Shown piece after piece: positions 16,786-59,140 of a stretch of 64,000 nt of DNA. The notes under the pieces were generated by a model. It did not search any database and had not been told where the DNA came from. It saw nothing but the letters and a program-made list of their open reading frames with translations. Source of the DNA: Nemophila menziesii. Lineage: Eukaryota > Streptophyta > Magnoliopsida > Boraginales > Hydrophyllaceae. Location of the stretch: contig JARWIR010000005.1 of NCBI GenBank assembly GCA_029959085.1, forward strand, positions 38,371,350-38,435,349. Reading direction: 5' to 3'. Position 1 is the first letter of the stretch. Every line of letters starts with the position of its first letter. The translations under genes were made by a program, and so were the position numbers.

Positions 16786-17114
16786 ACGAGAGGCGGTTTT
16801 AACTTCATTAAACCTAGTTTTTTGCATCTTTTCCAAGCCAAACCCTATAATCCGAATTCTCGCCTCCTACCACTCCTAAAATCATCATCAAAACAACATC
16901 ATACCACCAATCCTTCCCTCTAAACATCATCCAAGATCACAATCAAACCATTAAACTTCCAAAATACCAAAGCTTCACACTTTAATCCGAAGTTTTCTTT
17001 CACCAAAGCTAAAATTAATCCATAATTCAAACCCAAACCTTCAAGAACACTAAAATCACAATTTTATCCAAACCTTTTGAGGGTCTTGAAGCTTTGAGTT
17101 TGGGGTCATCGGAG

Positions 17115-17309
17115 ATGACCATGAAGGTTAGGAAAGGTACGAAGAACATGGTGAAGAAAGAGAATTGGGTATTGAGGAAGATTTTGAAAGAAGAGATGAT
17201 GCTTAGAGGGCAAGTAATAAATGAAAACGTGGTAAACGTGAAGAAGTTCGAGGTAATGAAGAACACTTTAAACGCAACCATCGATGAAGAATTCAAAACC
17301 TCAACTTGA
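17115..17309 (+). CDS. Short second ORF, Lys-rich, 64 aa
   Basis: It begins MTMKVRKGTKNMVKKENW and is rich in Lys. The start context, TTTGAGTTTGGGGTCATC then ATGACC, is shared with elements B, C and D, and D encodes a nearly identical start (MTMKVGKGTKNMMK). It sits where Athila elements carry their env-position ORF, and element B has a 321-residue ORF at the same place, so this is probably the truncated front of such a gene. No domain is recognised. Confidence 0.5.
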   Translation: MTMKVRKGTKNMVKKENWVLRKILKEEMMLRGQVINENVVNVKKFEVMKNTLNATIDEEFKTST

Positions 17310-17401
17310 ACGCAACACCGACACCAGCCTCGCGCTGGTTAAGATACGTTTTCTTTCCTTTCTCATTTAGTGTAAATTATTTTATTGCTTTGAGTCTTTT
17401 C

Positions 17402-17421
17402 GAGTCGTGGGGACACGACTC
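17402..17421 (+). other. GNRA-capped 8-bp hairpin (element A)
   Basis: GAGTCGTG-GGGA-CACGACTC is followed by TTTTTGAGTTTGGGGT. It is a perfect stem with a loop of the GNRA form, conserved at the equivalent point in elements B, C and D. Confidence 0.85.
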
Positions 17422-18078
17422 ATTTTTGAGTTTGGGGTGGGGTTCGTTGCCTCATCCCAGTTTTTATGTGTGTGTTTTAATTGCTTTCAATAAAATAATT
17501 TTCGGAGTTGCGTTTGACTATAGAAGATTTTAAATGTTCCTTTAAGCATACTTTTGATGAATTAATGATAGTAAATAGTGGACTTTAGGGATTGACATAG
17601 AACGCACTTACAATTGCATGCGAACATAGGTAATTGATAGGAAAAATTAATGAACAATGCAAATGAAGTAAGCTTGTACTTAAGGAATATGTTTGGTGTG
17701 TAGAACGTGAAATCCTAATTAGTAGAGAACCCACCTAGATATGAACTAAAGACAAGCTTTGTACTTAGGAAAATGATAGGGGCAGTTCTTTGTTAGCCAT
17801 TTGAAGCCTTTTAGCTTGCTATCCCTTATATTATAATTTTATCCGTCTTAGCCCAATTTTGAGCCTAAAGCCTTTTCTTTTGTAGCCACAATATAAGCCC
17901 ATTATCCTTTAGATTATTAGGCATGACCAAATGACCCGCACTTGAATCACAACCCTGAGACTTGTCTCGAGCTTGAGTTTGGGGTGGTGGGACCACATTT
18001 GGGAAATTACATTGGGAAGGGATTATATGTGTTTGTATTGAGGCACAAAAATGTAGATGATATGATTATTTTGTAACC

Positions 18079-18254
18079 CTTTGCCGGGATTTGAAAAGAA
18101 AAAAAAAAGAGAAAAAGAAAAAGAAAATTATAAGAGACATGACTTTTCACATCAAAACGAGGGTCATGGGTATCTTGTACAAAAAAAAGAAAAAAAAAAT
18201 GAAAAAAGAAGTGAAAAAGAAAATAAAAAGAAAGAATAAAATAAACCGGCAAAG
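18079..18254 (+). other. Stem-closed purine-rich domain (element A)
   Basis: CTTTGCCGG (18079-18087) is complementary to CCGGCAAAG (18246-18254). Between them lie A/G-rich runs and a conserved segment AGAGACATGACTTTTCACAT, with GGTCATGGGTATCTTGTAC further on. The same pair of blocks bounds a similar domain in B, C and D. Confidence 0.75.
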
Positions 18255-18782
18255 TGGAATATTTTTGGAAATCATCTTAGTTTTAATTGGGTTGACATGG
18301 GGATGCAACATTAGCGCGTCAATTGGGTGAGTGAGAACATTTTTGAGCGTAAACTCAAACTCGAGGACATTGTTGATGGTAAGTGAGGAGAGAGCCAAAA
18401 GCTCACTTCAAATTTACCAAATATACATCCATACCGTCCTTAAGCCATTATTAAAACCGTAAAGACCTCTTGATTCTTAAGTACATAGTGAATTTATAAT
18501 TCTGTTGATAGGGAATATACTAGGTGGAGCGTTCAAAGCAAGTTAGGATTAATGATCACCCTATAGCCATCATACAGAGATGAGTACAAGTGTAACCTTC
18601 AAGCATTGCGACTTTAATTTTATGATTGAGATTATTTATGTTTGATGTTGCATGATTAGTGTATGTATATGTTAGTTCTTAATGTTTGCTATATGAGATT
18701 TATCTTTAGCATTGCTTTAGGGTGTATTTGCTAGCTTCTATTTTCTCTTGCATCTACTTCACTCCCCTTGTTTTTAGTTTTG

Positions 18783-18818
18783 CTTTGTCGGGACGACAAA
18801 GGTTTGAGTTGGGGGTCT
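18783..18818 (+). promoter_or_regulatory. Polypurine tract with adjoining hairpin (element A)
   Basis: The hairpin CTTTGTCG-GGA-CGACAAAG (18783-18801) directly abuts GTTTGAGTTGGGGGTCT (18802-18818), the plus-strand primer tract that ends at the 3' LTR start at 18819. Confidence 0.85.
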
Positions 18819-20404
18819 TGATGTCTCCTTAATTGTTCGTATTTTCGACCCTTAGGAGACATCATTTTTGGTGTTTATTTGACTATCTAGATAGACTTTT
18901 GGACTAAATATGCAATAATATGATTTTCCTCTTTTATTTCTAGCATTTTTGATTTATTAAGCTTTTGCGCGTAATATTGGTATTTTTAGTGAAGATTTTA
19001 CAGGTTTAGATGTTAGCTAGAAGAGGAATCCAAGGAGAAAGTCAAAGATCGCGATATAGAGTCAAAACTTGAAGATAAAATCCCGAAGATATTATTTTTA
19101 GAGCTGAAAATCCATTTTCCAGGCTATAGATTGCTGATTTCGAGGTGCTTAAGAGATGATTTAGCCGCTGACCTTTGAAGAGAAAACATTCCTTATCGAG
19201 TTACGGAACTTTAGCAACTGGAATGAGGTCAATCGGAGTTGTAACGCATCGGGAAAAGCCGTTTTAGTGAAGGTGTATCAGCAGTTACGGGATTTTGGGC
19301 TTAGAATTTGGGCTTGGACATTTAATTATTGATTTATTCCTAAGTCCAAGCCCTAATCCGTTTTTAACATTATAAAAGGGCTTTAGACCTCTATTTTTCA
19401 GACAAACTTCATATCTTTTTCATAATACAACATACGCTTAAGAGTCAGACACCAGAGAAGAAGCTAGAGGCAGGAAGAGAAGAAGCAAGAGCTGGAGACG
19501 GTCTATATCTCCACTTCTCAGCCAATTCAATTCCGTAATTAGGTTCTTCTATTTTATTCTGTAAAACATGTTGAACCTATTTATTTCTTTAGTTTTTATC
19601 TTTTCAATTATTATGAGCTAAACTAATTTAATGCTTGAGAACGCATAATGGGTTAATCCCAATTTGATTTCGTTTTATACATTTGGATTTGGGATTATTA
19701 TTATTTAAATCAAATTGGGTGAATTGTATTTTTCTTTAATTTGCGCTTTATCTACTATAATTGACGTAATTAACCAATCATAGGTCTTAGTATCTAGGCT
19801 ATTCCAATTAGTGGCGATTGGATCACCTTGACGGGGGGTTTAGGTACCGAACTAGTTAATGAATGTAGGTTAGAAATTATTGACTCTGACGAGCTTAATT
19901 AAACCTATGGCCTATTGGGTAATTTGAACTTAAACACTTGAGAGTGGACTATAATCACCCTGACGGGGTTTGTAGCATTTGAGAGTTGCTCCTTAGTCCA
20001 CCCTGACGGGGGTAAGGAGATTATAGAATCCCGACCAATACAAATTTACCGATTTGTCCCTTAAACAATGTATGAAATGAATGATAGTTAGGTAAACCCT
20101 TGCGCCTCTCAAGTACTACCTGCTCTTACTTGCGTATCACTTTCATTTACTTGCGTCTTAGCTTTTATTTGTATTTTAATATTTGTCTTTCATTCATTAG
20201 AATTAATACAAAAACCAAACAAATATATTATTGTCTTTTATTTTCATAAGTGCATCAATCATTAATAGATAAGCATTGTAGTCAACCATCCCGTCCTTGG
20301 AACGAATCTGTTTTATCAACTATATTACTTGGGACAACCGTACACTTGCGGTTGTGGTTCGATTATCTTTTGCATTTATTTTTAGAACACACAAAGGACC
20401 ACCA
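18819..20404 (+). repeat. Element A 3' LTR
   Basis: 1586 bp, apparently identical to the 5' LTR, ending at GGACCACCA before the TSD GATAT. Confidence 0.95.
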
Positions 20405-20409
20405 GATAT

Positions 20410-21330
20410 CTAGATATCCTAGGGATTGTACATATTTTGTTAGGCTTGTTTTTTTAATTGTTCGTTTGTTCTTTTTTTATTATGGATTTTGACGTATGGT
20501 ATTTTTATTTTGGGTGAATGACATATAGGATTTTGGAGACTAGATTTCGTCCTATAGGAACTAGTAACAATCTTATTTCTTTAAAGGGACCTTTAGTATG
20601 ACCAAATATTAAAATATCCTTTCATATAAAACAAAAATCACTAAAAGGCAAAAATAAAGTGACAAGATTATTAATTCAATGAGTATTAAGTTGTTGAGGT
20701 TTGGCACTGTTCAATTTCGGCCACCAGCACCGTCCAACGCCGGAATTAAATATAGAGTATCGGGGAAAAAATATAGTATCGAAAAAAAAATATAGAGTAT
20801 CGGAAAAAATAGAGTATCAAAATTAAAATAATGAGTATCGGAAATTTGATAAATACCCAGTTAAAAAACACATAATATTATTATAAAATATGGAGTACTC
20901 TATAAAAACTGCGGAGTACTCAATAAAAATATAGAGTACTCAATAAAAAATATAGAATTCAATAAAACTAAGGAGTAATGTACAAAATAATTATATTTTA
21001 TTTACTTTTTAAATAAAAAACTATCACAATAATTAATACAATACCAAAAAAACTAGATATGGTAGATGCTTCTTCCCTACTCCTACCACTTGAAACAGAA
21101 GGGAGAAAAACTAGATCTGGTCAATGCTTCTTCCATTTACTCCCACCACTTGAAACAGACGGGTCTACTAAAGGACCTGACCAATTTTGAACCGGCTCTT
21201 TCATGTATGTACACGAGGTAGAGGAAAGAACTTTGAAAGTTAACCAAATATTCCTCAAACTTTGTTTTTTACCACCGTTTCCATCCATTACCTTTAAGGC
21301 CACGTGGTAGCAGTATTTACGTGATTATTA
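20410..21330. other. AT-rich unassigned sequence with degenerate repeats
   Basis: No gene seen. From 20745 to 20970 there are loose repeats of AAATATAGAGTATCGG and GGAGTACTCNATAAAAA. At 21055-21165 a phrase of about 60 bp (GGTNNATGCTTCTTCC..ACCACTTGAAACAGA) occurs twice in tandem. Confidence 0.5.
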
Positions 21331-33093: not shown

Positions 33094-34642
33094 TGGTGTC
33101 GCCTAGGGTGTTAGAAAAATAAGATAAATATAAGCCAGAAAACAATGTACTATCACCCTAGACAAGCACGGTACTACAAGTATTACAGGAGGTATGCAAT
33201 TTTTAATGATAAGTGAAGTTCGTTCTCAGGGACTTAATGTGTTATACGAATGGGTAAATAATAACGAGTGAGAAGTAAATAATTAAAAGACAGGATAATA
33301 AAGAGAATAATTTCGAGATTAACAATTAAACTAAGGAAAATAAAAGACAATAAAATTAATACGAAGAAAAATGAGATGAGAAGTATAGCTTAGGTTTTGC
33401 TAGTATGCACTAATTCTCCTAATTCTTTCTATCAAATCTAGTTAATAAGGGAGATAATTAGCTCTTAGATACTTAGTCAGGATTCTAAATTCCCATACCT
33501 TAGACCTTGAGAGCGACTAAGGGGGCTATGGGCACATCATGAGGCAGTCTAAACTTAGGATTATCAAACGCTACTAAGGTCCTAAGCAATTCAATTCCAA
33601 ACATGATGATAGTGATTATATTATACCCTAATGACTATCTAGCTAGAATTAGTGTTGTCAAGACCAATATCGACACTAGACGTTATGTGGTGTTTCAATA
33701 ATTAGACACCCAGTTAAGGTGAACATCTAACTACTATTAAGAAAGCCTAAAATGATCAGTTCTAGGACAGGCAATAAATCAAAACACATAAACAAATATA
33801 TATGTAAGAAGCTAATATCAGATTAAAACATGTAATTCCCAAAGAAACTTAGATAGAAAGAAATTAGAATTCATAGTTTTTATATGATGCAAAACCCAAG
33901 CTATGGGAAGTTTAGTTCATACCTGAAGGAAATAAACTAAAAGAAATAATAAAAGACATCATCTTGCTCTCTACAATAACTTTGATGAATAAAACCCTAA
34001 GGACTAATTACTATGAGGCAAGGATGAACAAGGATGATTTTACAAGTGATATAAGGGTGTATTTATAGGTGTATAGAAGCCCTAATTCGTTTTCTTGAAG
34101 GAGAAGGTAAGTAGTGGACTCCAAGCCCAACTCAAATTCGTAACCCTAAAACATGGAATCAGGCCCATTTTTGTTTTGGTCCTAGCAGCTTCAATACGCA
34201 TCCGTTTGACGCGTATGAGTAGTTGAAATTTATCGTCTCGAAAAGATCTCCAACTTTGCTCTTGACCGTTTCTCCAAATTCCAGACCAATTTTGAGATAT
34301 AAGCTGATTTGTGGTCGTGGGTGATGAAATTCAGGATTATGACAGCTTTTCCTTTTCCATGATTTTAGCTTTTCTTTCCTCATCTCCAATTACCATGCTT
34401 ATCTCTTTCCATATATATCTTAGTATTTGACTTGGAATCTAATTAATCTCCATAATTATCTTTAAAGCTTCACACTAAATAAATAATTAAACCCAATATG
34501 CTCTAAAAATAATAATTTACTAAATCAAGACTCAAAATAGAAAAGTGTAGCATTTCTCAAGAAAATCGACTAATATGACTTCTAAATCACTAAAAATGAT
34601 GTCTCCAACTAGGATTGATTCATGACAAATAGGGAGACATCA
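33094..34642 (-). repeat. Element B 3' LTR
   Basis: 1549 bp, reverse complement TGATGTCTCC to GGCGACACCA. Compared with 41513-43061, differences cluster in the first ~230 bases in plus coordinates (the R/U5 end) and are sparser after that. Confidence 0.9.
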
Positions 34643-36314: not shown

Positions 36315-37280
36315 TTATGCCACATAATTGGCTAAGGAAGGTTGAGCTGCATCGAAATTGTTTAAACGCTCCTCCATTTTCTCTTGCCAACTTTGCTCCT
36401 TTTCTTCTTTCGAGATTTGCGTAGAAACCGCTCCTCTCAAGACTTTCATGATCCAAGCATTATCAATATAACTCTTTTTAAATTCCAGATTCTCTTTTTC
36501 ACCCAATATTACATTCGCTTTTTGCATAAGACACGTGATCATAGTAGGATATTTAACATTATAAACTGATTTAGGAGAGACCGAAAATCGCATCACCTCC
36601 TTATAGATCAACTGTGCCACATCCACTTCTCCTCCTCTCAAAATACAGTCCAAAAGTAGAGCGTTCTTCTTAGTCACATCCAAAGTTCTTGTGTTTCCAA
36701 AGACATTAGGAATAAGGAAATTGTGCCAAACTCTAGCATCTGATTGAAGATATTTGTAAGGCCAAGGTGCCTTCAATTCTCCCTTATGTGATTGCACTTT
36801 CTCCTTGTCTAAAACATGCTCAAAAAGTAATTCCTCATCAAAGATTTTTCGTTTAGCCACCGCTTCACTGTACTTGCAAGGTCCAATTAATTTCTTAAAC
36901 TGGAAGTGGTTTCTAATCTCATCAACTGTGAAAGGAACTAACTTTCCTCTAATCGGAACACAACCTTCACTATCTCGGCTATAGAGGCCTAAATAGAAAT
37001 TTAAAACTAATTCACAACATAAATCAGAACGTCTTACCATGAACGTAGACCAACCCAATCTTTCACCTAGCTCCAAGAATCTCTTATACTCTCCTGTACC
37101 AACTTCTTCATCGAATACTTTCTCATAAGCAAAAGGTAGTTCCTTTAATTGTTTTTCTGCAGAAGCTATCAAGGCCTTTGAAGCTTCCTCTTTATAAACG
37201 GGTGTAGGACCTTTGAATAAAAGAGGTTGTGTTCTCTTCTTGGAATAAAGTTGAACCCTTTTTCCCATTAAATCAAACAT
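36315..37280 (-). CDS. Env-position ORF, plant-transposon-protein-like, 321 aa
   Basis: The open frame starts MFDLMGKRVQLYSKK. The segment at about residues 78-125 (RRSDLCCELVLNFYLGLY, then GCVPIRGKLVPFTVDEIRNH) resembles the domain found in the second ORF of Athila-type elements and in many 'putative plant transposon protein' entries, where a pattern EFYxNL...VRGxxVxFs..xIN is typical. No signal peptide or membrane segment is evident, so it is not a classical envelope protein. The conserved upstream start (ATGACT near 37415-37430, after TTTGAGTTGGGGGTC) is separated from this frame by stops, so the 5' end is decayed. Function unknown. Confidence 0.6.
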   Translation of the reverse strand: MFDLMGKRVQLYSKKRTQPLLFKGPTPVYKEEASKALIASAEKQLKELPFAYEKVFDEEVGTGEYKRFLELGERLGWSTFMVRRSDLCCELVLNFYLGLYSRDSEGCVPIRGKLVPFTVDEIRNHFQFKKLIGPCKYSEAVAKRKIFDEELLFEHVLDKEKVQSHKGELKAPWPYKYLQSDARVWHNFLIPNVFGNTRTLDVTKKNALLLDCILRGGEVDVAQLIYKEVMRFSVSPKSVYNVKYPTMITCLMQKANVILGEKENLEFKKSYIDNAWIMKVLRGAVSTQISKEEKEQSWQEKMEERLNNFDAAQPSLANYVA

Positions 37281-41512: not shown

Positions 41513-43061
41513 TGGTGTCGCCTAGGGTCCTAGAAAACTAAGATAAATATAAGCCAGGAAACTATGTACTTTCACCCTAGACAAGCACAGTACTGCAAGT
41601 ATTACAGGACGTATCCAAGTTTTAATGGTAATTGAAATTCGTTCTCAGAGACTTAACGTGTTATAGGAATGGGTAAATAATAACTAGTGAGAAGTAATTA
41701 ATTAAAAAACAGGAAAATAAAGAAAATAATTTCGAGATTAACAATTAAACTAAGGAAAATAAAAGACAATAAAATTAATACGAAGAAATATGAGATGAGA
41801 AGTATAGCTTAGGTTTTGCTAGTATGCACTAATCTTCCTAATTCTTTCTATCAAATCTAGTTAATAAGGGAGATAATTAGCTCTTAGATACTTAGTCAGG
41901 ATTCTAAATTCCCATACCTTAGACCTTGAGAGCGACTAAGGGTGCTACGGGCACATCATGAGGCAGCCTAAACTTAGGATTATCAAACAATACTAAGGTC
42001 CTAAGAAATTCAATTCCAAACATGATGATAGTGATTATATTATACCCTAATGACTATCTAGCTAGAATTAGTCTTGTCAAGACCAATATCGACACTACAC
42101 GTTATGTGGTGTTTCAATAATTAGACACCCAGTTAATGTGAACACCTAACTACTATTAAGAAAGCCTAAAGTGATCAGTTCTAGGACAGGCAATAAATCA
42201 AAACACATAAACAAATATATAGGTAAGAAGCTAATATCAGATTAAAACATGTAATTCCCAAAGAAACTTAGATAGAAAGAAATTAGAATTCATAGTTTAT
42301 ACATGATGCAAAACCCAAGCTATGGGAAGTTTAGTTCATACCTGAAAGAAATAAACTAAAAGAAATAATAAAAGACATCATCTTACTCTCTACAATAACT
42401 TTGATGAATAAAACCCTAAGGACAAATTACTATGAGGCAAGGATGAGCAAGAATGATTTTACAAGTGATATAAGGGTGTATTTATAGGTGTATAGAAGCT
42501 CTAATTCGTTTTCTTGAAGGAGAAGGTAAGTAGTGGACTCCAAGCCCAACTCAAATTCGTAACCCTAAAACATGGAATCAGGCCCGTTTTTGTTTTGGTC
42601 CTAGCAGCTTCAATACTCATCCGTTTGACGCGTATGAGTAGTTGAAATTTATCGTCTCGAAAAGATCTCCAACTTTGCTCTTGACCGTTTCTCCAAATTC
42701 CAGACCAATTTTGAGATATAAGCTGATTTGTGGTCGTGGGTGGTGAAATTCAGGATTATGACAGCTTTTCCTTTTCCATGATTTTAGCTTTTCTTTCCTC
42801 ATCTCCAATTACCATGCTTATCTCTTCCCATATATATCTTAGTATTTGACTTGGAATCTAATTAATCTCCATAATTATCTTTAAAGCTTCACACTAAATA
42901 AATAATTAAACCCAATACGCTCTAAAAATAATAATTTACTAAATCAAGACTCAAAATAGGAAAGTGTAGCATTTCTCAAGAAAATTGACTAATATGACTT
43001 CTGAATCACTAAAAATGATGTCTCCAACTAGGATTAATTCATGAAAAATAGGGAGACATCA
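41513..43061 (-). repeat. Element B 5' LTR
   Basis: 1549 bp. It has a TATA-type CTATAAATACACCC on the minus strand near 42480-42493. The U3 end has the TGATGTCTCC...GGAGACATCA inverted repeat. Confidence 0.9.
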
Positions 43062-43494
43062 GCCGGTATATATATACTAGTCAGGACTCTAGTATCTCCT
43101 AGCCCCCTGTCGGGTGGACCTAGGAGCTATCCTAAGGTAAGATAAACCCCTCTAAGGTAGTAAATTTACTTACGGATGTGAAGTTCTTTACCTCTTTGGC
43201 TATGTGATTAGTCAAGCCTGTCGGTCAATAACGGACATCACACAGATATTACCTAAGTCTGTAATCAAACCCCCTTGTCGGATGATCACTTCGCCACTGA
43301 AGTGAATAGCCTAATTACTCAAACTTATTTCTAATTGATCAGAAAAGAAATAATAAACAAGCGTAATATAATATCCAGTATAAAATACCCAACTTAGATT
43401 TAATCATAAATCCCAAATTCGGAAATATAAATCAATTAACCTAGGGTTTCAACGCATTTATTGCGATTCTAAAGTACTAAGAAATTTAGCTCAT
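43062..43494 (-). mobile_element. Element C 3' LTR, piece 2
   Basis: It continues piece 1 after the B insertion and matches 57950-58360 of the C 5' LTR. It includes motifs such as CCCCCTGTCGGGTGGAC. Ends at the CTCAT target of element D. Confidence 0.88.
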
Positions 43495-45079
43495 TGGTGG
43501 TCCTTTGTGTGTTCTAAATAAATGCAAATAATAATCGAACCACAACCGCAAGTGTACGGTTGTCCCAAGTAATATAGTTGATAAAACAGATTCGTTCCAA
43601 GGACGGGATGGTTGACTACAATGCTTATCTATTAATGATTGATTGCACTTATGAAAGTAAGTAAAAGATATATTGATTGTTTGTTTGTTTTTATTATTCT
43701 AAGTAATGAAAGACTAAATGGAAAATGCAATTAAATACTAAAATGCAAGTAAATAAATGTGAAACGCAAGTATGAGAAGGTAGTACTTGAGAACGCAAGG
43801 ATCCTCCCAATCTTATTTCCTAACTTATGTTGTTTAAGGGCTAAATTGGTCAATTACAATGGTCGGGATTCTAAATTCCTTATACCCCCGTCAGGGTGGA
43901 CTATAAGGCGATCCTAAAGTGTCACTAGTCCCGTCAGGGTAAATATGATCCACCGTTGGATGTTTAAGATTTAATACCTCATTGGCCCTAGAATTAGCTA
44001 AGTTCGTCAGAATCAATAGCTTCTATCCTAGATTAAATAAATGGTTCTGTATTTAAACCCTCCGTCAGGATGATCCAATTGCCACTAATTGGAATAGCCT
44101 AAATACTAACACCTGTTCCTAGTTCATGACGCTAAAAACAGTAAAATAATCTCAATTTATTGAAAAGAGTAAAAGCCCTAATCTAGTTTAATTTAACAGA
44201 AACCCAAATTCAACATTCGTTATTCAATAAAATTGGGATTCACCCATTGTTTGTTCTCAAGCACTATGAATTGTTTAGCTCATATTAAAAAGAAATATTA
44301 AATTAAAACAGAAAGAATTCATGTTCTTCAATTACAGAAATAAAAGATAGAACCTAATTAAGAATCGGGTTTGGCTGTGATTTGGAGAAGATGACTTTCT
44401 CCAGCTCTAAGCTTTCTCCTTTTCCTTACTTCTGACTTTCTCTCTGGACGCTCTCTTCTAATGATGATTTAATTTGAAGAATAAAATGAGAGGTACTGAA
44501 TAATGAGGTCTAAAGACCTATTTATAATCATAAAATCGGATTAGGGCTTTTACTTAAGGATTAAGTAAAAATTAGAAAAGCCCAAGTCCACTAATTAAGC
44601 CCAAATCCCGTAACTGCTGATACACCTTCACTAAAACGGCTTTTCCCGCTTCGTTATGACCCCGATTTACCTCATTCCAGTTGCTAAAGTTCCGTAACTC
44701 GATATGGAACATAATCTCTTCAAGGGTCAGCGGCTAAATCATCTCTTAAGCACCTCGAAATCAGCAATCTATGGCCTGGAAAATAGATTTTCAGCTCTAA
44801 AAATAATATCTTCGGGATTTATCTTTAAGTCTTGACTCCATATCATGATCTTTGACTTTCTCCTCGGATTCCTCTTCTAGCTAACATCTAAAACCTGTAA
44901 ACTTTACACTAAAAATACCAATATTACGCGCAAAAGTTTAATAAATCAAAATTACTAGAAATAAAATGGAAATTCCGGATTATTGCATATTAGCACCAAA
45001 AGTCTATCTAAATAATCAAATAAACACCAAAAATGATGTCTCCCAATGGCATAAAATTAGAAGATTTAGGGAGACATCA
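43495..45079 (-). repeat. Element D 3' LTR
   Basis: 1585 bp, minus strand TGATGTCTCCC to GGACCACCA. Inverted repeat at its U3 end extends to 11 bp (CCC with GGG). Confidence 0.93.
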
Positions 45080-45115
45080 AGACCCCCAACTCAAACCTTT
45101 GTCGTCCCGACAAAG
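45080..45115 (-). promoter_or_regulatory. Element D polypurine tract and hairpin
   Basis: Minus strand CTTTGTCG-GGA-CGACAAAG (45115-45097) followed by GTTTGAGTTGGGGGTCT, identical to element A. Confidence 0.85.
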
Positions 45116-45647
45116 CAAAACTAAATAAAACAAGGGGAATGAAGTAGATGCAAGAGAAAATAGAAGCTAGCAAATAAACCCTAAAGCAATGCTAAAGATA
45201 AATCTCATATAGCAAACATTAAGAACTAACATATACATACACTAATCATGCAACATCAAACATAAATAATCTCAATCATAAAATTAAAGTCGCAATGCTT
45301 GAAGGTTACACTTGTACTCATCTCTGTATGATGGCTATAGGGTGGTCATTAATCCTAACTCGCTTTGAACGCTCCACCCAGCGTATTCCCTATCAACAGA
45401 ATCATAAATTCACTATGCACTTAGGAATCACGAGGTCTTTATGGTTTTAATAATGGCTTAAGGACGGTGTGGATGTATATTTGGTAAATTTGAAGTGAGC
45501 TTTTGGCTCTCTCCTCACTTACCATCAACAATGTCCTCGAGCTTGAGTTTACGCTCAAAAATATTCTCACTTACCCATTCGACGCGCTAATGTTGCGTCC
45601 CCAATGTCAACCCAAATGAGACTAAGATGAATTCCAAAAATATTCCA

Positions 45648-45806
45648 CTTTGCCGGTTGATTTTATTCTTTCTTTCTTTTTATTTTCTTTTTCATTTCTT
45701 CTCTTTTTTTTTGTACAAGATACCGATGACCATCATTTTGATGTGAAAAGTCATGTCTCTTATAATTTTTTTTTTTTTTTTTTTTTAAATTCAAATCCCG
45801 GCAAAG
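45648..45806 (-). other. Stem-closed domain (element D)
   Basis: CTTTGCCGG and CCGGCAAAG bound a purine-rich interior (minus strand) with the AGAGACATGACTTTTCACAT segment. Confidence 0.7.
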
Positions 45807-46463
45807 GGTTACAAATAATAATATCATCTACCTTTTTGTGCCTCAATACAAACACATATAATCCCTTCCCAATGTAATTTCCCAAATGTGGACCCTCCAC
45901 CCCAAACTCAAGCTCGAGACAAGTCTCAGGGTTGTGATTCAAGTGCGGGTCATTTGGTCATGCTTAATAATCTAAGGGATAATGGGCTTATATCGTGGCT
46001 ACAAAAGAAAAGGCTTAAGGCTCAAAATTGGGCTAAGACGGATGAAATTATAATAACGGATAGCAAGCTAAAAGGATTCAAATGGCTAACAAAGAACTGC
46101 CCCTATCATTTTCCTAAGTACATAGCTTGTCTTTAGTTCATATCTAGGTGGGTTCTCTACTAATTAGGATTTCACGTTCTACACACCAAACATATTCCTT
46201 AAGTACAAGCTTACTTCATTTGCATTGTTCATTAATTTTTCCTATCAATTACCTATGTTAGCATGCAATTGTAAGTGCGTTTTATGTTATTCCCTAAAGT
46301 CCACTATCTACTATCATAGATTCATCAAAAGTATGCTTAAAAGGGACATTTAAAATCTTCTACAGTCAAACGCAACTCCTAATTATTTTATTGAAAGCAA
46401 TTAAAACAAATAAACACATAACAACTGGGATGAGGCAACGAACCCCACCCCAAACTCAAAAAT

Positions 46464-46483
46464 GAGTCGTGTCCCCACGACTC
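46464..46483 (-). other. GNRA-capped hairpin (element D)
   Basis: The same 20 bases as in element A, on the minus strand. Confidence 0.85.
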
Positions 46484-46704
46484 GAAAAGACTCAATATAG
46501 CAATTAAACTAATATACACTAAATGAGAAAGGATAGGAAAACATATCTGTATCGGCACTAGGCCGATTACGTGTAGTCTCATGTTGAAGTTTTGAATACT
46601 TCTTTATCAAGCTTAAAAGATCATGTTTGTTGCGTTCATCTTGCATAAAGTGTTCTTCATTACTTCGAACTCTCATGTCATATTTTCCAAGTCTTCATCT
46701 TTTC

Positions 46705-46806
46705 CTAACCCTCTAAATCATCATCTCTTCTACGAAAATCTTTCCTCAACATCCAACTTTTTATCTTCATCATGTTCTTCGTACCTTTTCCAACCTTCAT
46801 GGTCAT
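46705..46806 (-). CDS. Short second ORF, 33 aa
   Basis: MTMKVGKGTKNMMKIKSW matches the start of the 64-residue ORF of element A, as does the upstream TTGAGTTTGGGGTCATC. It then stops early. It may be a degenerate env-position remnant or a short peptide. Confidence 0.4.
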   Translation of the reverse strand: MTMKVGKGTKNMMKIKSWMLRKDFRRRDDDLEG

Positions 46807-47339
46807 CTTTGATGACCCCAAACTCAATTTTTCACCTACTTAAAGATTACTTGCAAAATATATAATATTAATATGCTCAAACAATTCACAATTCCTCCGC
46901 TAAATAACTAAAATAAATCTTAATTCCCAACTGGTAATAGAAATAAAAGAATAGTTCTAGCTATTTTACCGGATTGGCCATGGAATTTATGATGATTTGA
47001 TACCTTGCACTTGCAATCTCCAACCTTCAAATTACCAAAGCTTTTGATGAAATTTGTGTCTCTTGATATTGTTGAAAGTGGCACAGTAGTGGAATTTGTG
47101 ATTTAGTTGAGATGGGTATTTAATATCTATGGTGTTGGAAAGGTTTAAAGGATATAATTTAAGCTTTGGTGAAGAAATTTTTGGGTTAAAACTTGAATTT
47201 CTTGGTGTTTTTGGAAAGATTTGTGATTGATTATGTGTTGGGATGATGTTTAGAGGTAAGGATTGGTGATATATTGGTGTTTTGATGATGGAATTTAAGT
47301 GTTTTTGGAGCTTTGGTTCGTCATCAATGGTGCTAAGTG

Positions 47340-47590
47340 GAGACGCAACCACGAGACGCAACTAATGCCGGGCCTCAAAACGCTGGGTCAGAAACTTTTA
47401 GCTGTTCATACGAAATTTTCGACTTCACCATTGGATAGAGCTCGAAAAGTTATGCGGTTTAGGCTCAAGAAAAAGTTAATTCCGACCTCCGAGCGTCAAG
47501 TTATGATCTTCCGAAGTTTTGATACCTGGGGTACAACACCGAAAACGGGTACCCGCATTCTACAAACCGGGTACCCGGTTTCTACTGTAT
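47340..47590 (-). repeat. Palindrome island of element D
   Basis: In the same position as the islands of A and B. It holds CGGGTACCCG (47546-47555) and the perfect 18-bp palindrome AAACCGGGTACCCGGTTT (47564-47581), besides GAGACGCAAC repeats near 47340. The palindrome core is GGTACC-based, unlike the CCGG-NNNN-CCGG of A. Confidence 0.75.
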
Positions 47591-47764
47591 TGGAACCCAA
47601 AATTTTCATTCTTTTTCGTTCTAGGTATCCCAAACTCGTGACCTTTACTCCTGTAATCATCAAAAACACCAACCTTTCTCATTTCTTAAAAATAAACACT
47701 AAATAAATAACCATTACTCTAATTCACACTAAGAATTTAAAAGACATGAAAGCAATTTAAAACA

Positions 47765-47815
47765 TGGGTTGTCTCCCAAGAAGCACTTTTGTTTATTACG
47801 TCTTTAAGTTCGACG
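47765..47815 (-). other. Post-stop hairpins (element D)
   Basis: Minus strand: CGTC-GAACTTAAA-GACG (47815-47799), with the ORF stop codon inside its loop, then TGGGAGACAACCCA (47778-47765). Confidence 0.7.
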
Positions 47816-49045
47816 CGTTACCTTCCATGAAGATGGTATTGAGGCCCTTGCTGTGTTCCTCCGCTTAAACTCGCCTCTCCCTTGATGTGAAATATTTAGA
47901 ACCTTCCCCTTTAGAATATTATTTAATCGATCTCTGAAAGGGGGAGGGTAGTATCTCCGTTTCGCCTTCTTGCTTTCATGGCGAAACTCGTTCTTCACCA
48001 CACGATAGTAGATAACCGTTCTCGACGGTATAAGCTCATTTGTATTTTCTTTAATCTCGCGTTCCTCTTTAAAGTGTGGTGGGTAGGTGCTTCTCCTTGC
48101 CGCTTTACTCTCGCGGTGTAGCACCTTTCTTGCGTAGCTCCTATTGATCATTTTTAATAATAGAGGTGATTCCGATATTTTATCTCTAATGATGACTAGT
48201 GGTGGAGATAGGGATTGGTGAACTTTTTGTGGTGGGAATTCGATTTCTCTTTTATTATGAAGCTTTAACTCTTCAATTGATTTCTCAACCACTTCACATT
48301 CGTCTTCGCTTTCAATCCAATCTTCCACTATTACTTCATCATATTCTCGATGTGGAATCTGAATCTCGATCACCTCTTCTTCTTGTTTGCGTTCAGTATC
48401 TGGATCATGTGCACGCACCATAGGAATAGCAATCTCAGCTTCAATTTCTAGGATTTTTGTTGCTACTCCTTCTTCCACCATGCTAATAGGATTGTTAACC
48501 ACATGGTGGTCTTCATTTATAACCGGCATGATGGTCATATCACTATCAATAGTATCTTCCTTTAACACCTCCTCCTCAACTACTTCTTCCAGTTGATTTC
48601 TATCCCTCGGGGGAGTGGAATCTTCATAAGACATACTACCAGTTTCAACTAAGTTAGGAGGGTTGTTTCGGGCAGCCATTTCATCTAGGCTCTGTTGTAT
48701 GAGTGCATGGGTGGCTTTGAATTCCTCATCTCTTGCCTTACGCTCTGGTTCTCCTGCTTGAAATTCCTCGCGTAGGCGATTAACTCTCTCTAGTAGTGTC
48801 TCTTGCTGATAGTGTTGAGGTGAAGGTTGTTGAATGTTTTCAACCCAATGGTTGTTCCATTCTTGCTCGTGTTGATAGTGATATGGTGTTTGTTGTTGAG
48901 TACTTCCGATCCATTGATTGTTCCATCCTTGCTCTTGCGGGTATTGATAAGGTTGTTGGTAGAAGTTACTACCCCATTGTTGTTGTCCCGAAGAGTCTTC
49001 CCAATAGTCATATGGATCGGGATCTGGGTAATGTCCTCTATACAT
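47804..49045 (-). CDS. 413-aa ORF of unknown function replacing Gag (element D)
   Basis: It is intact and begins MYRGHYPDPDPYDYW. Residues 1-80 are Gln/Asn/Tyr/Trp-rich with an imperfect repeat (EQGWNNQWIG.., EQEWNNHWVE..), prion-like in composition. Residues about 82-125 look like a charged coiled coil (LLERVNRLREEFQAG). Residues 135-270 are strongly acidic and 275-413 strongly basic, the latter with an internal repeat of the form HxESKxAxRRxxYPPxF. I see no capsid domain, zinc knuckle or protease motif. The N-terminal part could correspond to the linker and coiled coil that follow the knuckle in Gag of A. It occupies the gag position after the shared leader. An RNA-binding or particle-interacting role is only a guess. 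Confidence 0.75.
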   Translation of the reverse strand: MYRGHYPDPDPYDYWEDSSGQQQWGSNFYQQPYQYPQEQGWNNQWIGSTQQQTPYHYQHEQEWNNHWVENIQQPSPQHYQQETLLERVNRLREEFQAGEPERKARDEEFKATHALIQQSLDEMAARNNPPNLVETGSMSYEDSTPPRDRNQLEEVVEEEVLKEDTIDSDMTIMPVINEDHHVVNNPISMVEEGVATKILEIEAEIAIPMVRAHDPDTERKQEEEVIEIQIPHREYDEVIVEDWIESEDECEVVEKSIEELKLHNKREIEFPPQKVHQSLSPPLVIIRDKISESPLLLKMINRSYARKVLHRESKAARRSTYPPHFKEEREIKENTNELIPSRTVIYYRVVKNEFRHESKKAKRRYYPPPFRDRLNNILKGKVLNISHQGRGEFKRRNTARASIPSSWKVTRRT

Positions 49046-49181
49046 CTTTAATTAAATTTATTGATCATTACCTGAATAAAGCACCTGTAAAAACAAAACA
49101 AGCAAACACAAGCGTAAAACTGAAAAATAAAAATAAATGCAACTATCACTAAAGGATAAACACCGTGGTCACACGCTACCG

Positions 49182-49199
49182 TCCCCGGCAGCGGCGCCA
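49182..49199 (-). promoter_or_regulatory. Element D primer-binding site
   Basis: Minus strand TGGCGCCGCTGCCGGGGA, identical to A and B. Confidence 0.85.
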
Positions 49200-49205
49200 A
49201 AAACT

Positions 49206-50790
49206 TGGTGGTCCTTTGTGTGTTCTAAATAAATGCAAATAATAATCGAACCACAACCGCAAGTGTACGGTTGTCCCAAGTAATATAGTTGATAAAACAG
49301 ATTCGTTCCAAGGACGGGATGGTTGACTACAATGCTTATCTATTAATGATTGATTGCACTTATGAAAGTAAGTAAAAGATATATTGATTGTTTGTTTGTT
49401 TTTATTATTCTAAGTAATGAAAGACTAAATGGAAAATGCAGTTAAATACTAAAATGCAAGTAAATAAATGTGAAACGCAAGTATGAGAAGGTAGTACTTG
49501 AGAACGCAAGGATCCTCCCAATCTTATTTCCTAACTTATGTTGTTTAAGGGCTAAATTGGTCAATTACAATGGTCGGGATTCTAAATTCCTTATACCCCC
49601 GTCAGGGTGGACTATAAGGCGATCCTAAAGTGTCACTAGTCCCGTCAGGGTAAATATGATCCACCGTTGGATGTTTAAGATTTAATACCTCATTGGCCCT
49701 AGAATTAGCTAAGTTCGTCAGAATCAATAGCTTCTATCCTAGATTAAATAAATGGTTCTGTATTTAAACCCTCCGTCAGGATGATCCAATTGCCACTAAT
49801 TGGAATAGCCTAAATACTAACACCTGTTCCTAGTTCATGACGCTAAAAACAGTAAAATAATCTCAATTTATTGAAAAGAGTAAAAGCCCTAATCTAGTTC
49901 AATTTAACAGAAACCCAAATTCAACATTCGTTATTCAATAAAATTGGGATTCACCCATTGTTTGTTCTCAAGCACTATGAATTGTTTAGCTCATATTAAA
50001 AAGAAATATTAAATTAAAACAGAAAGAATTCATGTTCTTCAATTACAGAAATAAAAGATAGAACCTAATTAAGAATCGGGTTTGGCTGTGATTTGGAGAA
50101 GACGACTTTCTCCAGCTCTAAGCTTTCTCCTTTTCCTTGCTTCTGACTTTCTCTCTGGACGCTCTCTTCTAATGATGATTTAATTTGAAGAATAAAATGA
50201 GAGGTACTGAATAATGATGTCTAAAGACCTATTTATAATCATAAAATCGGATTAGGGCTTTTACTTAAGGATTAAGTAAAAATTAGAAAAGCCCAAGTCC
50301 ACTAATTAAGCCCAAATCCCGTAACTGCTGATACACCTTCACTAAAACGGCTTTTCCCGCTTCGTTATGACCCCGATTTACCTCATTCCAGTTGCTAAAG
50401 TTCCGTAACTCGATATGGAACATAATCTCTTCAAGGGTCAGCGGCTAAATCATCTCTTAAGCACCTCGAAATCAGCAATCTATGGCCTGGAAAATAGATT
50501 TTCAGCTCTAAAAATAATATCTTCGGGATTTATCTTTAAGTCTTGACTCCATATCATGATCTTTGACTTTCTCCTCGGATTCCTCTTCTAGCTAACATCT
50601 AAAACCTGTAAACTTTACACTAAAAATACCAATATTACGCGCAAAAGTTTAATAAATCAAAATTACTAGAAATAAAATGGAAATTCCGGATTATTGCATA
50701 TTAGCACCAAAAGTCTATCTAAATAATCAAATAAACACCAAAAATGATGTCTCCCAATGGCATAAAATTAGAACATTTAGGGAGACATCA
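49206..50790 (-). repeat. Element D 5' LTR
   Basis: 1585 bp. TATAAATAGG near 50220-50235 on the minus strand. Confidence 0.93.
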
Positions 50791-51773
50791 CTCATGTTCG
50801 AATTAAAAACTGAAAATAAATAAATAACATTCATCATTCTCAATTGAGTAATGATATTTGTCACCCTTTTTGTATCACCCATTTATCACCTCCTACGTGT
50901 ATGCCTACATGGACCAATGAATTGATTTCTCTATCCTATTTAATTTTTCTCTATCTTCTATTCAAGGAAATCAATACATATATATAGAAGGGTGATAAAA
51001 GAGTGACATGAAAAGGGGTGACATATATCATTACTCTTCTCAATTGCATAAAAAAATGAATAACCTAAGGATTTGATTGACTGTTGTTGGAAAAATGTAA
51101 ATCCTCCAACTCTATCTTTTTACTGTCTTTTTGCTCTGACTTGAAAATAATGAAGCGTAATGTAAATATAATGAATTGTGTGTAAAAAGGAGGTCTAAAA
51201 GCCTATTTATAATGTTATAATTAGGATCGGGCTTTTACTTTAGAATAATAAGTTAAATGATGAAAAGTCCAAGTCCATCTTTAAGAATCCCCTAACTACT
51301 GTATAGCATGTAGTAAAACGGCCGTAACTTTTGAGTCTCACGTCCAAATCACCTGATTCCGGTCCTCAAATCTTGCTAACTCAAAGGCGCAATTTTATAT
51401 TGTAGATCTCCAGGCCTGAATCAGTGTCGATGTGGTTCGAAATTAACAATTTGTAACAGCTATCCAAATTTCCATCTCTTTTAGTCATCTCTTCGGGTGA
51501 TTCTTCCTTGCTTTTGACCTCTCCGCTCGATCTAAGACTTTAATTCTCACTTTTCCTCCTTGTCTTGGTGCTCCATAGCCTTCATGGACCTGATAACTTT
51601 ATACTAAAAACTAACAAATTAACGCACAAAAGCTCTAAAAATGCAAATAACATAATTTCAAGGGGAGAAAGTGTAATATGACGAAATAAGCATAAAAGTC
51701 TATCAAATAAGTCTAATATTCACTTAAATTATGTCACCTAAGGTCATATATTTAGAAAAAATAGGAGACATCA
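50791..51773 (-). mobile_element. Element C 3' LTR, piece 3
   Basis: It resumes after the D insertion and runs to GGAGACATCA at 51773, next to the C polypurine tract. It matches 58362-59140 of the C 5' LTR apart from the MITE. Confidence 0.88.
50846..51036. mobile_element. MULE-type MITE (GAGTAATG family), 191 bp
   Basis: The ends are GAGTAATGATATTTGTCACC and (reverse complement) GAGTAATGATATATGTCACC. The perfect nine-base duplication is TTCTCAATT (50837-50845, 51037-51045). The C 5' LTR (about 58402-58420) lacks it, so it is a clear insertion. Related to 21920-22098. Confidence 0.93.
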
Positions 51774-57592: not shown

Positions 57593-59140
57593 TGGTGGGT
57601 CCTGGGGTGTTATAAAATTATGCAATAAATAAATGATCAATAGACCTCAAGTGTACGGGTCATTCAAGTAATAACCAATAATCAGGATTTCGTTCTCAGG
57701 GACAGATAGTGATAAATCAGGTATTAATCAACTAAGTAGAAGTAATTGCTAAAACAGAAAAGTAAAATATAAAGATATTTGTTTGGTTTTGATTTATAAC
57801 TAAAGATGCAATAAAATACAATACTGAAATGCTTATCTGAAAAGAATACTGAAAGTAAATAGATGTAGACACAAGGATGAGAGATGTACTTGAGTCTCTC
57901 AAGAGATCCACCTAAGTTTGTCTAATTAATGTTTCCGCTTAAGGGCTAAGCCGGTATTTATATACTAGTCGAGACTCTAGTATCTCCTATCCCCCTGTCG
58001 GGTGGACTTAGGAGCTATCATACGGTAATATAAACCTCTCTAAGGTAGTAAATTTACTTACGGATTATGTGATTAGTCAAGCCTGTCGGTCAAGAACGGA
58101 CATCACACGGATATTACCTAAGTCTGTAATCAAACCCTCTAGTCGGATGATCATTTCGCCACAAAAGTGAATAGCCTAATTACTCAAACTTATTTTTAAT
58201 TGGTTAGAAAAGAAATATTAAACAAGCGTAAAATAATAGCCAATATAAAATACCCAACTTAGATTAAATCACAAATCCCAAATTTGGAAACAAAAAATAA
58301 TTAACCTAGGGCTTTAACCCATTTATTGCGATTCCCAAGTACTAAGAAATTTAGCTCATCTTCGAATTGAAAACTGAAAATAAATAAATAACATTCATCA
58401 TTCTCAATTACAGAAAATAAATGAATAACCTAAGGATTGGATTGGCTGTTGTTGGAAGAATGGAAATTCTCCAGCTCTAGCTTTCTCCTCTGCCTTTTTG
58501 CTCTGACTCGAAAATACTGAAGAGTAATGTAAAATGTAATGAATTGTGTTTAAAAAGGAGGTCTAAAAGCCTATTTATAATGCTCTAATTCGGATTCGGC
58601 TTTTACTTAAGAATAATGAGTTAAATGATAAAAAGCCCAAGTCCATCTTTAAGAATCCCGTAACTGTTGTACAACCTGTAGCAAAACAGCCATAAATTTT
58701 GCGTCTCACGCCCAAATCACCTTATTCTAGTCCTCAAGTCTTGCTAACTCAAAGGCACAACTTTCTCTTTCAAATCTCTAGGTCTGAATAAGTGTCGATA
58801 TGGCTCGAAATCAACAATCAGTAACAGCTATCCAGATTTCCATCTCTTTTAGTAAACTCTTCAGGTGATTCTTTCTTGCTTTTGACCTCTCCGCTCGATC
58901 TAAGACTTTAATTATCACTTGTCCTCCTTGTCTTGGTGCTCCATAGCATCCATGGACCTGAGAACTTTATATTAAAAACAAACAAATTAACGCACAAAAG
59001 CTCTATAAATGCAAATAACATAATTCTAAGGGGAGAAAGTGTAATATGACGAAATAAGCATAAAAGTCTATCAAATAAGTCTAATATTCACCTAAAATGA
59101 TGTCTCCTAAGGGAATATATATAGAAAAAATGGGAGACAT
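57593..59140 (-). repeat. Element C 5' LTR
   Basis: About 1548 bp. The U3 end reads GGGAGACAT and then flanking sequence, so the terminal CA is lost or mutated. Partner of the interrupted 3' LTR at 33021-51773. Confidence 0.88.

Follow-up and report, generated by a model that had tools for sequence, protein, structure and literature searches.

Element D, an LTR element on the minus strand of the window (the whole stretch of 64,000 nucleotides of Nemophila menziesii DNA that was analysed), appears to belong to a numerous, recently active and non-autonomous family whose gag-pro slot is filled by a different gene. As judged from the variants among its copies, the reading frame in this slot is held by purifying selection in replicating lineages. 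By the linkage between their parts, the copies of the family behave as a recombining population. Furthermore, it is strongly indicated that in many rounds the R-U5 strong-stop DNA came from the RNA of another element, so that D RNAs would have been packaged together with diverse RNAs.

Structure of element D and its relation to element A

The sequence confirms that D is an LTR element, and a young one. Its near-identical TG...CA LTRs of 1585 bp each (5' LTR at 49206-50790, 3' LTR at 43495-45079, minus strand) differ by 6 mismatches and 0 gaps in a pairwise alignment, and the short target site duplication ATGAG was read at both flanks (50791-50795 on the 5' side, 43490-43494 on the 3' side). 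This agrees with the first-pass annotation, which had described a young insertion with about six LTR differences. The 1586-bp self-match of the LTRs is the 1585-bp LTR plus one chance A. A primer binding site (PBS) 3' of the 5' LTR and a purine tract 5' of the 3' LTR were read in the sequence. The former, TGGCGCCGCTGCCGGGGAC (49181-49199, minus strand), is identical in element A of the same window and presumably is of the tRNA-Asp type. The latter, GAGTTGGGGGTCT (45080-45092, minus strand), adjoins the 3' LTR, and we take it to be the polypurine tract from the role of such tracts in LTR elements in general. A presumed promoter TATA box, TATAAATA, lies at LTR position 554 (50230-50237, minus strand). 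An Rfam search of 43400-50900 gave no match at E≤0.1.

The PBS and a leader of ~120 nt (49083-49205, minus strand, ending at CAGGT) are common to D and A, at least the first 60 nt being identical. D 46827-43477 matches A 17094-20422 with 85% identity, including the 3' LTR; the common 3' region (45080-46827, minus strand) is without a long ORF on the strand of the element. The earlier claim that primer site, leader and 3' cassette of D are those of A was thus borne out. A block of 58 nt of PBS and leader sequence (49143-49200, minus strand) recurs in 2439 exact copies across the genome, upstream both of A-type gag and of D-type ORFs, and is a candidate packaging signal. The single long ORF of D encodes 413 aa (47804-49045, minus strand). 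Its stop codon and last ~20 nt are homologous to the post-gag sequence of A. Since the ORF ends within this sequence, the swapped part is a D-specific cassette of ~1.26 kb (47824-49082, minus strand), which takes the place of the gag-pro ORF of A.

A post-stop hairpin and a second-ORF start had also been described as common to both elements. A lacks the post-stop segment GGGAGACAACCC, the alignment having a gap there, and the segment folds no better than its shuffles (z -0.53); a role as a special signal is thus not supported. The short inverted repeat TTGGGAGACAACCCA 3' of the stop (47765-47779, minus strand) is absent from A and unexceptional in its fold. At the supposed second start, the ATG of D runs straight into TTT TAA, and no such start was found in A. 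Only one same-strand frame of at least 90 codons lies 3' of the D ORF, comprising 109 codons of low complexity.

The ORF of A matches Retrotrans_gag (PF03732) and, weakly, protease. Neither RT nor integrase was found in the long ORFs of D or A, the ORF of A giving no match to either, and no further ORF of A reaches 150 aa. Thus, A cannot be the sole helper of D. The Gag of A and the PBS suggest that the lineage of D is Ty3/gypsy and Athila-like.

The D protein and selection on its reading frame

The first-pass layout of a 413-residue protein with a Q/N/Y-rich front, a coiled coil, an acidic middle and a basic end fits both composition and structure model. Residues 1-83 (48797-49045; all parts of the protein on the minus strand) contain 30% Q/N and 19% Y/W as well as repeated motifs, and resemble prion-like Gag domains, as judged from composition and model. 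Residues 84-127 (48665-48796) are the sole confidently predicted, helical and coiled-coil-like part of an AlphaFold model with a mean pLDDT of 39, in which residues 1-81 have no confident structure. Most of the protein is predicted to be unstructured or disordered. By composition, residues 129-262 (48260-48661) are acidic with a net charge of -30, and residues 292-413 (47807-48172) are basic with a net charge of +21 and a duplicated 24-residue basic motif.

Pfam, blast and profile comparison revealed neither capsid nor zinc knuckle nor protease homology in the D protein, as anticipated in the first reading. The protein matched 0 Pfam families at E≤10, and tblastn against the window returned only the ORF itself and four matches of E 2.0 or worse. 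It was unrelated to the Gag of A in every one of these comparisons, and no clear homology to any Gag emerged from them. PDB and PHROGs searches with its sequence gave no match at E≤1, and no relative was found in IMG/VR. A protein database search examined 1866 candidates with 0 at E≤0.001; since not even the ORF of D was returned, this absence of matches says little about other plants.

A count of copies, suggested earlier as a check, placed the D-type ORF at at least 256 loci in this genome (101, 7 further, and 148 of 150 further). In 79 of the 101 loci of the first set the ORF has no internal stop. D itself (L001) was dropped from the counts, and L051-L062 and L071, which are without usable flanks, enter the ORF counts only. 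Variants in 60 ORF copies were split into singletons (185 N, 76 S, 13 stops) and variants shared by several copies (99 N, 71 S, 0 stops). For the shared variants, N/S was 1.39 versus a neutral expectation of 3.12, derived from the non-coding DNA in 28 of these copies (P 4e-7 for N), and 0 of 170 were stops versus 13.6 expected (P 7e-7); the singletons were nearer to neutrality. Neutral decay of the ORF was rejected on N/S and stops. A dN/dS near 1 across copies was not found: with this depletion of shared N and stops, pairwise dN/dS drops from 0.77 to 0.37 with growing dS; when sites are weighted for transitions, the drop is from 0.81 to 0.50. Pooled dN/dS was 0.72 in the acidic middle versus 0.34-0.44 in the rest of the ORF. 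The suggestion that the protein may do something for the element is in line with the purifying selection to which N/S, stops and declining dN/dS point.

In 28 copies, shared variants amounted to 0.0475 per site in the ORF and to 0.0385 in the non-coding DNA on its 3' side, so that the ORF shows no deficit of them. As the ORF is not slower overall, the case for selection rests on N/S and stops. The copies were chosen by ORF similarity, a criterion that tends to pick intact ORFs in which few amino acids have changed. This sampling also lowers the singleton N/S, so that the comparison of singletons with shared variants is conservative, though not bias-free.

Linkage within the LTRs and between LTR and ORF

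Over the 1225 pairs of 50 copies, median identity was 82% for the LTR, 97.4% for the leader and 97.7% for the ORF, the middle of which is near uniform (99.1% median DNA identity). A separate leader comparison covered 47 of the 50 D-type copies, L002, L005 and L015 being dropped for a PBS one base off. LTRs were cut at fixed offsets from the ORF, which with leaders of 157-176 nt gives an error of a few bases. The 14 pairs with ORFs of at least 99.5% identity had a median LTR identity of 81.5%, and the 93 pairs with LTRs of at least 95% had a median ORF identity of 97.6% versus 97.7% over all pairs.

Mantel comparisons comprised 49 copies; L039, with a broken 5' LTR, was left out of these and of the switch scans. 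The U3 side of the LTR was linked to the 3' region with r 0.72, as opposed to r 0.07 for U5, which gave 0.05 with the leader and -0.08, -0.01 and 0.10 with parts of the ORF. Within the LTR, the middle was linked to U5 with r 0.83, and the U3 side with 0.16. The linkage switches at LTR positions 600-760, just 3' of the TATA box; these positions (~50031-50191, minus strand) probably represent R. The low r of U5 with the ORF is partly due to the fact that the ORF varies little. The contrast between U3 and U5 is unaffected by this low variation. R-U5 unlinked to leader and ORF, with U3 tracking the 3' region, is the pattern that intermolecular first-strand transfer leaves behind when different RNAs are packaged together. 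Weak links are left between U5 and the first 180 nt 3' of the ORF (r 0.19, P 0.006) and between mid-LTR and the 3' region (r 0.17) or post-ORF sequence (r 0.25; P 0.002 each); they count against a full R-U5 exchange, since this would give no such links.

The two LTRs within each of 20 elements were 98.0-99.75% identical. Perfect 5-bp target duplications were present in 11 of 11 copies with both ends readable, including L038, whose LTR ends CTACCA. Of 10 other copies, 9 run beyond their stretch of sequence and L039 is without a readable 5' start.

U5 was compared between nine copies of A type, namely A and 8 from a list of 50, and 46 of the 50 D-type copies; L028, L031, L041 and L048 were left out for an altered cutting motif. 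U5 of the nine A-type copies was clonal within Gag groups, and 2 of 414 A-D pairs reached 95% and 0 of 414 reached 97%. These values do not support the earlier view of D as a satellite of A, nor do they support A as LTR donor to D or as its partner. No R-U5 donor of the D-type copies was found among the nine A-type copies. The R-U5 exchange partners of D-type copies probably form a larger pool than these nine.

Possible role of the D protein and known systems

On balance, we lean towards a reading in which the D family is non-autonomous, retains a selected ORF, undergoes intermolecular R-U5 transfer and encodes a disordered, capsid-less, Gag-like protein that gathers RNA. Minus-strand strong-stop DNA (R-U5) would be copied from another element's RNA before its transfer to D RNA. 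The D RNAs would enter particles along with diverse other RNAs, and the invariant PBS/leader block would be the likely common packaging signal. From its composition, the protein may be a Gag analogue that is disordered and has no capsid: its coiled coil and Q/N/Y-rich front may self-associate, and the basic end may bind RNA. The protein may thereby gather the RNA that encodes it and aid its entry into particles of other elements' Gag, RT and integrase. That selection acts at all suggests that it favours its own RNA (cis preference). A bolder version, which we hold to be rather doubtful, is a multipartite, sexually reassorting retrotransposon community. Here, Gag-Pro (A type), D-protein and Pol RNAs with one identical packaging leader (the 2439 exact copies) would enter particles jointly and swap R-U5 in almost all rounds. 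The D protein would then be a retrotransposon protein of a new kind, namely a scaffold without a capsid that admits its own RNA to the particles of many helper families.

It is unlikely, though worth weighing, that the protein derives by strong divergence from the part of Gag that separates nucleocapsid from protease (Q/N/Y-rich, coil, acidic, proline-rich PPPF motif), this part having been kept when capsid and protease were lost. The linker of A's Gag has, by eye, a similar composition order, the ORF sits in the gag slot and ends in A's post-gag sequence, and a PPPFxxR likeness is seen by eye. However, low-complexity layouts are easily convergent, the best blastp match has 18 bits (E 1.2), profile comparison gives a probability of 0.1% (with a profile of only 5 Gag pieces), and 0 Pfam matches were found at E≤10. 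We give an equally low probability to an action of the protein on the host outside particles, e.g. as a silencing suppressor or nuclear factor. Selection on the ORF is silent on the site of action, and an acidic middle with a basic end is compatible with many roles, but a diffusible benefit common to all copies would not be selectable in a satellite unless it acted in cis or early.

Somewhat less probable still is that the long 5'-proximal ORF is retained because it benefits the RNA, through escape from nonsense-mediated decay, cover by ribosomes or RNA signals in the coding region, and not for its protein. This accounts for the 0 shared stops and the near-uniform middle of the ORF (99.1%), but alone leaves the shared amino-acid depletion (N/S 1.39 versus 3.12) unexplained. 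An ordinary dead non-autonomous family with a merely young ORF would fit the young copies, the close-pair dN/dS of 0.77-0.81 and shared variants per site no rarer in the ORF than in non-coding DNA; the drop of dN/dS with distance and the depletion of shared N and stops make it very unlikely. We attach the least weight to gene conversion between inserted copies, instead of reverse transcription, as the source of uniform ORFs and diverse LTRs. Although it would likewise unlink ORF from LTR, the LTR pairs of 20 elements agree at 98.0-99.75%, target duplications are perfect in 11 of 11 readable copies, and the breakpoints near R and at the PBS are the ends of strong-stop DNA.

As a family with a selected, possibly Gag-like protein, D differs from several known groups. 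LARDs are long non-autonomous LTR elements with a conserved internal region, defined as without coding capacity, whereas D encodes a selected protein. TR-GAG elements have an internal ORF encoding Gag only; this does not apply to D, and A is nearer to them with its Retrotrans_gag and weak protease matches. A 2010 article in Plant Cell, going by its title, reports that autonomous and non-autonomous elements of soybean swap their LTRs. The gag-only or gag-env Athila elements described from Arabidopsis are non-autonomous, have LTRs and contain an ORF that purifying selection maintains; recombination between distant families is described as well (PMC2410132). D is likewise non-autonomous with LTRs and a selected ORF, but the ORF of these Athila elements is Gag (or Gag and Env), whereas no sequence comparison identified that of D as Gag. 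RLG_Quinta/RLG_Cereba and RLG_Sabrina/RLG_WHAM/RLG_Wilma of Triticeae, as described, share with D a non-autonomous member, an identical PBS, conserved LTR ends and template switching (PMC11302176; PMC9744471). Unlike D, RLG_Quinta still encodes Gag beside a domain of unknown function, and the descriptions compared contain no linkage break at R (PMC11302176; PMC9744471). tRNA-Asp is given as the predicted primer for wheat RLG_Wilma and its partners (PMC9744471). LTR recombinants of Arabidopsis Onsen were ascribed to a first template switch that takes place in R, from one co-packaged RNA to another (PMC5668417); these arose in experimental bursts in one family, whereas D offers a record in standing copies of a non-autonomous family. 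In Ty1 Gag, a prion-like front is reported as required for transposition and particle assembly (PMC10372613). The D protein shares with it a disordered prion-like front, by analogy only, and Ty1 Gag has a capsid, whereas none was found in the D protein. Among titles and abstract starts in open-licence PMC we recognised no description of a plant LTR element whose gag slot holds a selected ORF other than Gag, which does not prove that there is none.

The usual view of non-autonomous LTR elements is that they are passengers that encode nothing, or that they supply Gag. A numerous family with a selected protein in which Gag homology is undetected indicates that a satellite retrotransposon can own a gene, and it raises the question of how cis preference persists. 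Furthermore, the linkage break at R, seen in a static genome, makes intra- versus intermolecular first-strand transfer readable from population data and may serve as a means of telling which elements share particles.

Structure of element D and the protein in its gag slot

Element D (43495..50790, minus strand) is bounded by LTRs which comparison placed at 49206-50790 (5') and 43495-45079 (3'). They differ by 6 mismatches and the target duplication is 5 bp (ATGAG). Assuming 1.3e-8 substitutions per site and year for plants, the insertion is roughly 0.15 million years old. The flanks of D (43061-43494 and 50791-51771) are one repeat with a second copy at 57949-59140; D within this repeat represents nested insertions of related elements.

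According to the first-pass annotation, D shares LTRs and RNA signals with its comparison element A but carries an unrelated protein. PBS, LTR and leader are common to both elements, but of the listed features the hairpin and a second-ORF start are not. The PBS of D, TGGCGCCGCTGCCGGGGAC, is that of A. For comparable wheat elements, section 2.8 of PMC9744471 gives tRNA-Asp as the predicted primer. A 58-nt PBS/leader block common to A and D has 2439 exact copies in the genome, its reversed control none; among 100 places listed, coordinate matching located 6 ahead of D-type ORFs (those of copies carrying the D ORF) and 7 ahead of A-type ORFs (those encoding the Gag-protease of A) and left the other 87 unassigned. 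In A as in D the leader is predicted to fold more stably than most of its shuffled versions (z about -2.5), and its end (49046-49090; TTTTTACAGGT ahead of the D ORF, TTTTCTCAGGT ahead of that of A) appears splice-acceptor-like. Similarity covers LTR and leader up to CAGGT at 49083 and resumes at 47823, 20 nt ahead of the end of the D ORF, leaving a cassette of about 1.26 kb private to D between two A-similar stretches. In A the corresponding slot is filled by an ORF of 912 aa that matches Retrotrans_gag and, with scores short of the curated cut-off, protease.

The D ORF (47804-49045) encodes 413 residues. By composition the front (residues 1-83) contains 30% Q/N and 19% Y/W; a predicted helical part (84-127, pLDDT ~67-86), an acidic part (129-262, net charge -30) and a basic end (292-413, net charge +21) follow, the last with a 24-residue basic motif duplicated at 305 and 350. 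Searches of Pfam (E<=10), PHROGs, PDB (by sequence), a large protein set and IMG/VR all came back without a match to the protein. It shows no similarity to the Gag of A (blastp E 1.2, profile-profile probability 0.1%), which bears out its description as unrelated.

Copy number and selection

In the genome of 1.517 Gb (361 contigs), the D protein matched at least 101 places, each covering residues 1-413 at 91-100% identity; 79 of the 101 places listed lacked an internal stop. A second query, the copy L060, contributed 7 new places among 101 listed, and a 101-aa piece of the sister copy L061 yielded 148 new among 150 listed (83-100% identical), many L061 places sitting in frames of 382-431 codons. 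The copy L071 found at least 150 places, 84-89% identical except L071 itself. The first three queries together give at least 256 distinct loci with a D-type ORF, and the true number is probably higher. Some elements are evenly spaced by about 5.6 or 7.4 kb (G000:C201:65694 and 71340; C1:36709388, 36716820 and 36724236; C1:19804266, 19809906 and 19815546), as though they formed tandem arrays sharing LTRs.

Minor alleles in the ORFs of D and 59 other copies (60 in all) were classed by the number of carrier copies. Singletons, which are mostly changes after insertion, comprised 185 nonsynonymous (N) and 76 synonymous (S) alleles and 13 stops, as against 99 N, 71 S and 0 stops among alleles in at least two copies, most of which must have gone through replication (Fisher, P 0.009 for N/S and 0.002 for stops). 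For 28 of the 60 copies, the non-coding DNA downstream of the ORF supplied the mutation spectrum from which the neutral expectation was derived. The 170 shared alleles had an N/S of 1.39 versus 3.12 expected (P 4e-7) and 0 stops versus 13.6 (P 7e-7), which puts the relative rate at about 0.45. The P values involving shared alleles are optimistic, as recombination and descent keep these alleles from being fully independent. Singletons also fell somewhat below neutrality (N/S 2.43 versus 3.12, P 0.04; 13 stops versus 22.0, P 0.02), as would be expected of copies chosen by ORF score. The ORF has no fewer shared variants per site (0.0475) than the non-coding 3' DNA (0.0385); the case for selection therefore lies in N/S and stops.

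In comparisons of 62 ORFs, pairwise dN/dS declines as dS grows, being 0.77 where dS is <0.02 and 0.37 where it is >0.12 (from 0.81 to 0.50 with transition-weighted sites and L071 added); a value near 1 across copies, which would have spoken against a selected protein, was not seen. Pooled values were 0.34 for residues 1-83, 0.35 for 84-128, 0.72 for 129-260 and 0.44 for the C-terminal part. These values amount to moderate purifying selection on the ORF and lie at or beyond the upper end of the range given in PMC2410132 for Athila gag (0.19-0.38).

Exchange among copies and the linkage break at R

Among 50 D-type copies with flanks (1225 pairs), the LTR (its last ~1.3 kb) had a median pairwise identity of 82%, the leader 97.4% and the ORF 97.7% (99.1% in the middle part); downstream of the ORF the medians were 82-87%, and some pairs dropped to 46%. 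Where ORFs were at least 99.5% identical (14 pairs), the median LTR identity was 81.5%; where LTRs were at least 95% identical (93 pairs), the median ORF identity was 97.6%, versus 97.7% for all pairs. One copy, L039, combines the D ORF with an A-like 3' region (94%). Since each of 20 elements has its own LTR pair at 98.0-99.75% identity and the 5-bp duplication was perfect in all 11 copies with both ends readable (among 21), the chimaeras were inserted as such. Two copies (L033, L043) carry, 3' of the ORF, repeated units reading GTRICKCGYPV or VPAFANAGTRF in several frames, a local repeat in an alternative 3' region. At L040:7273-7542 a D-type ORF piece (97%) directly adjoins the 3' LTR end of a second, oppositely oriented D-type copy, an arrangement that looks like insertion of one into the other.

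Mantel tests on 49 copies linked the U3 side of the LTR to the 3' region (r 0.72, P 0.002) and the middle to the end of the LTR (r 0.83). U5 showed no linkage to the leader (r 0.05) or to ORF parts (r -0.08, -0.01, 0.10) and almost none to the 3' region (r 0.07, P 0.05). In a window-by-window scan the linkage switched at LTR positions ~600-760, just 3' of TATAAATA at position 554. Thus, the exchanged block runs from R to the PBS, matching the span of minus-strand strong-stop DNA in reverse transcription, an explanation that PMC5668417 also gives for the majority of Onsen LTR recombinants. This linkage change at R strongly indicates that D RNAs were co-packaged with other RNAs. Several weaker links would not be expected if exchange were complete. 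They join U5 to the 180 nt that follow the ORF (r 0.19, P 0.006), mid-LTR to the 3' region (r 0.17) and to these 180 nt (r 0.25; P 0.002 each), and the U3 side to U5 (r 0.16, P 0.01) and to the ORF front (r 0.24, P 0.004). Some copies therefore retain their own R-U5 or have donors in common. ORF front and end are unlinked (r -0.09), implying further switches inside the ORF.

Possible partners and described relatives

A-type elements as R-U5 donors of D are unsupported: in nine A-type copies, a small sample (A and 8 of 50 listed), 2 of 414 A-D U5 pairs reached 95% identity and none 97%, compared with 35 and 3 of 1035 D-D pairs. The U5 of these nine form two groups about 79-82% identical to each other, one a pair with frames of 908 codons (99.8% identity), the second made up of the remaining seven (93.5-100%); A-type elements look clonal. 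In the window, Gag and protease matches occur in A and in E, an LTR element with LTRs at 33094-34642 and 41513-43061, and the Gag of A has matches in two more elements; RT families were absent among the matches of the five window ORFs scanned. The ORF of A (13374-16112) begins with Gag, continues with protease and finishes in a tail ending WLGPFVV...; E has this tail as well (43% identity), and we take it to be the GPY/F end of integrase. RT and integrase core of A seem to have been deleted in frame, possibly long ago. A 321-aa ORF of E (36315-37280) matches PF20167 Transposase_32 (E 1.8e-22).

The closest described cases retain Gag: RLG_Quinta (PMC11302176) has Gag and an unknown domain, and the Athila gag-only elements (PMC2410132) keep Gag, whereas the selected ORF of D is non-Gag. 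D belongs to a numerous young non-autonomous family with a coding, selected, non-Gag ORF. Selection maintained in an element dependent on others argues for a benefit in cis. By analogy with the prion-like front described for Ty1 Gag in PMC10372613, the D protein may serve as a scaffold or in RNA gathering.
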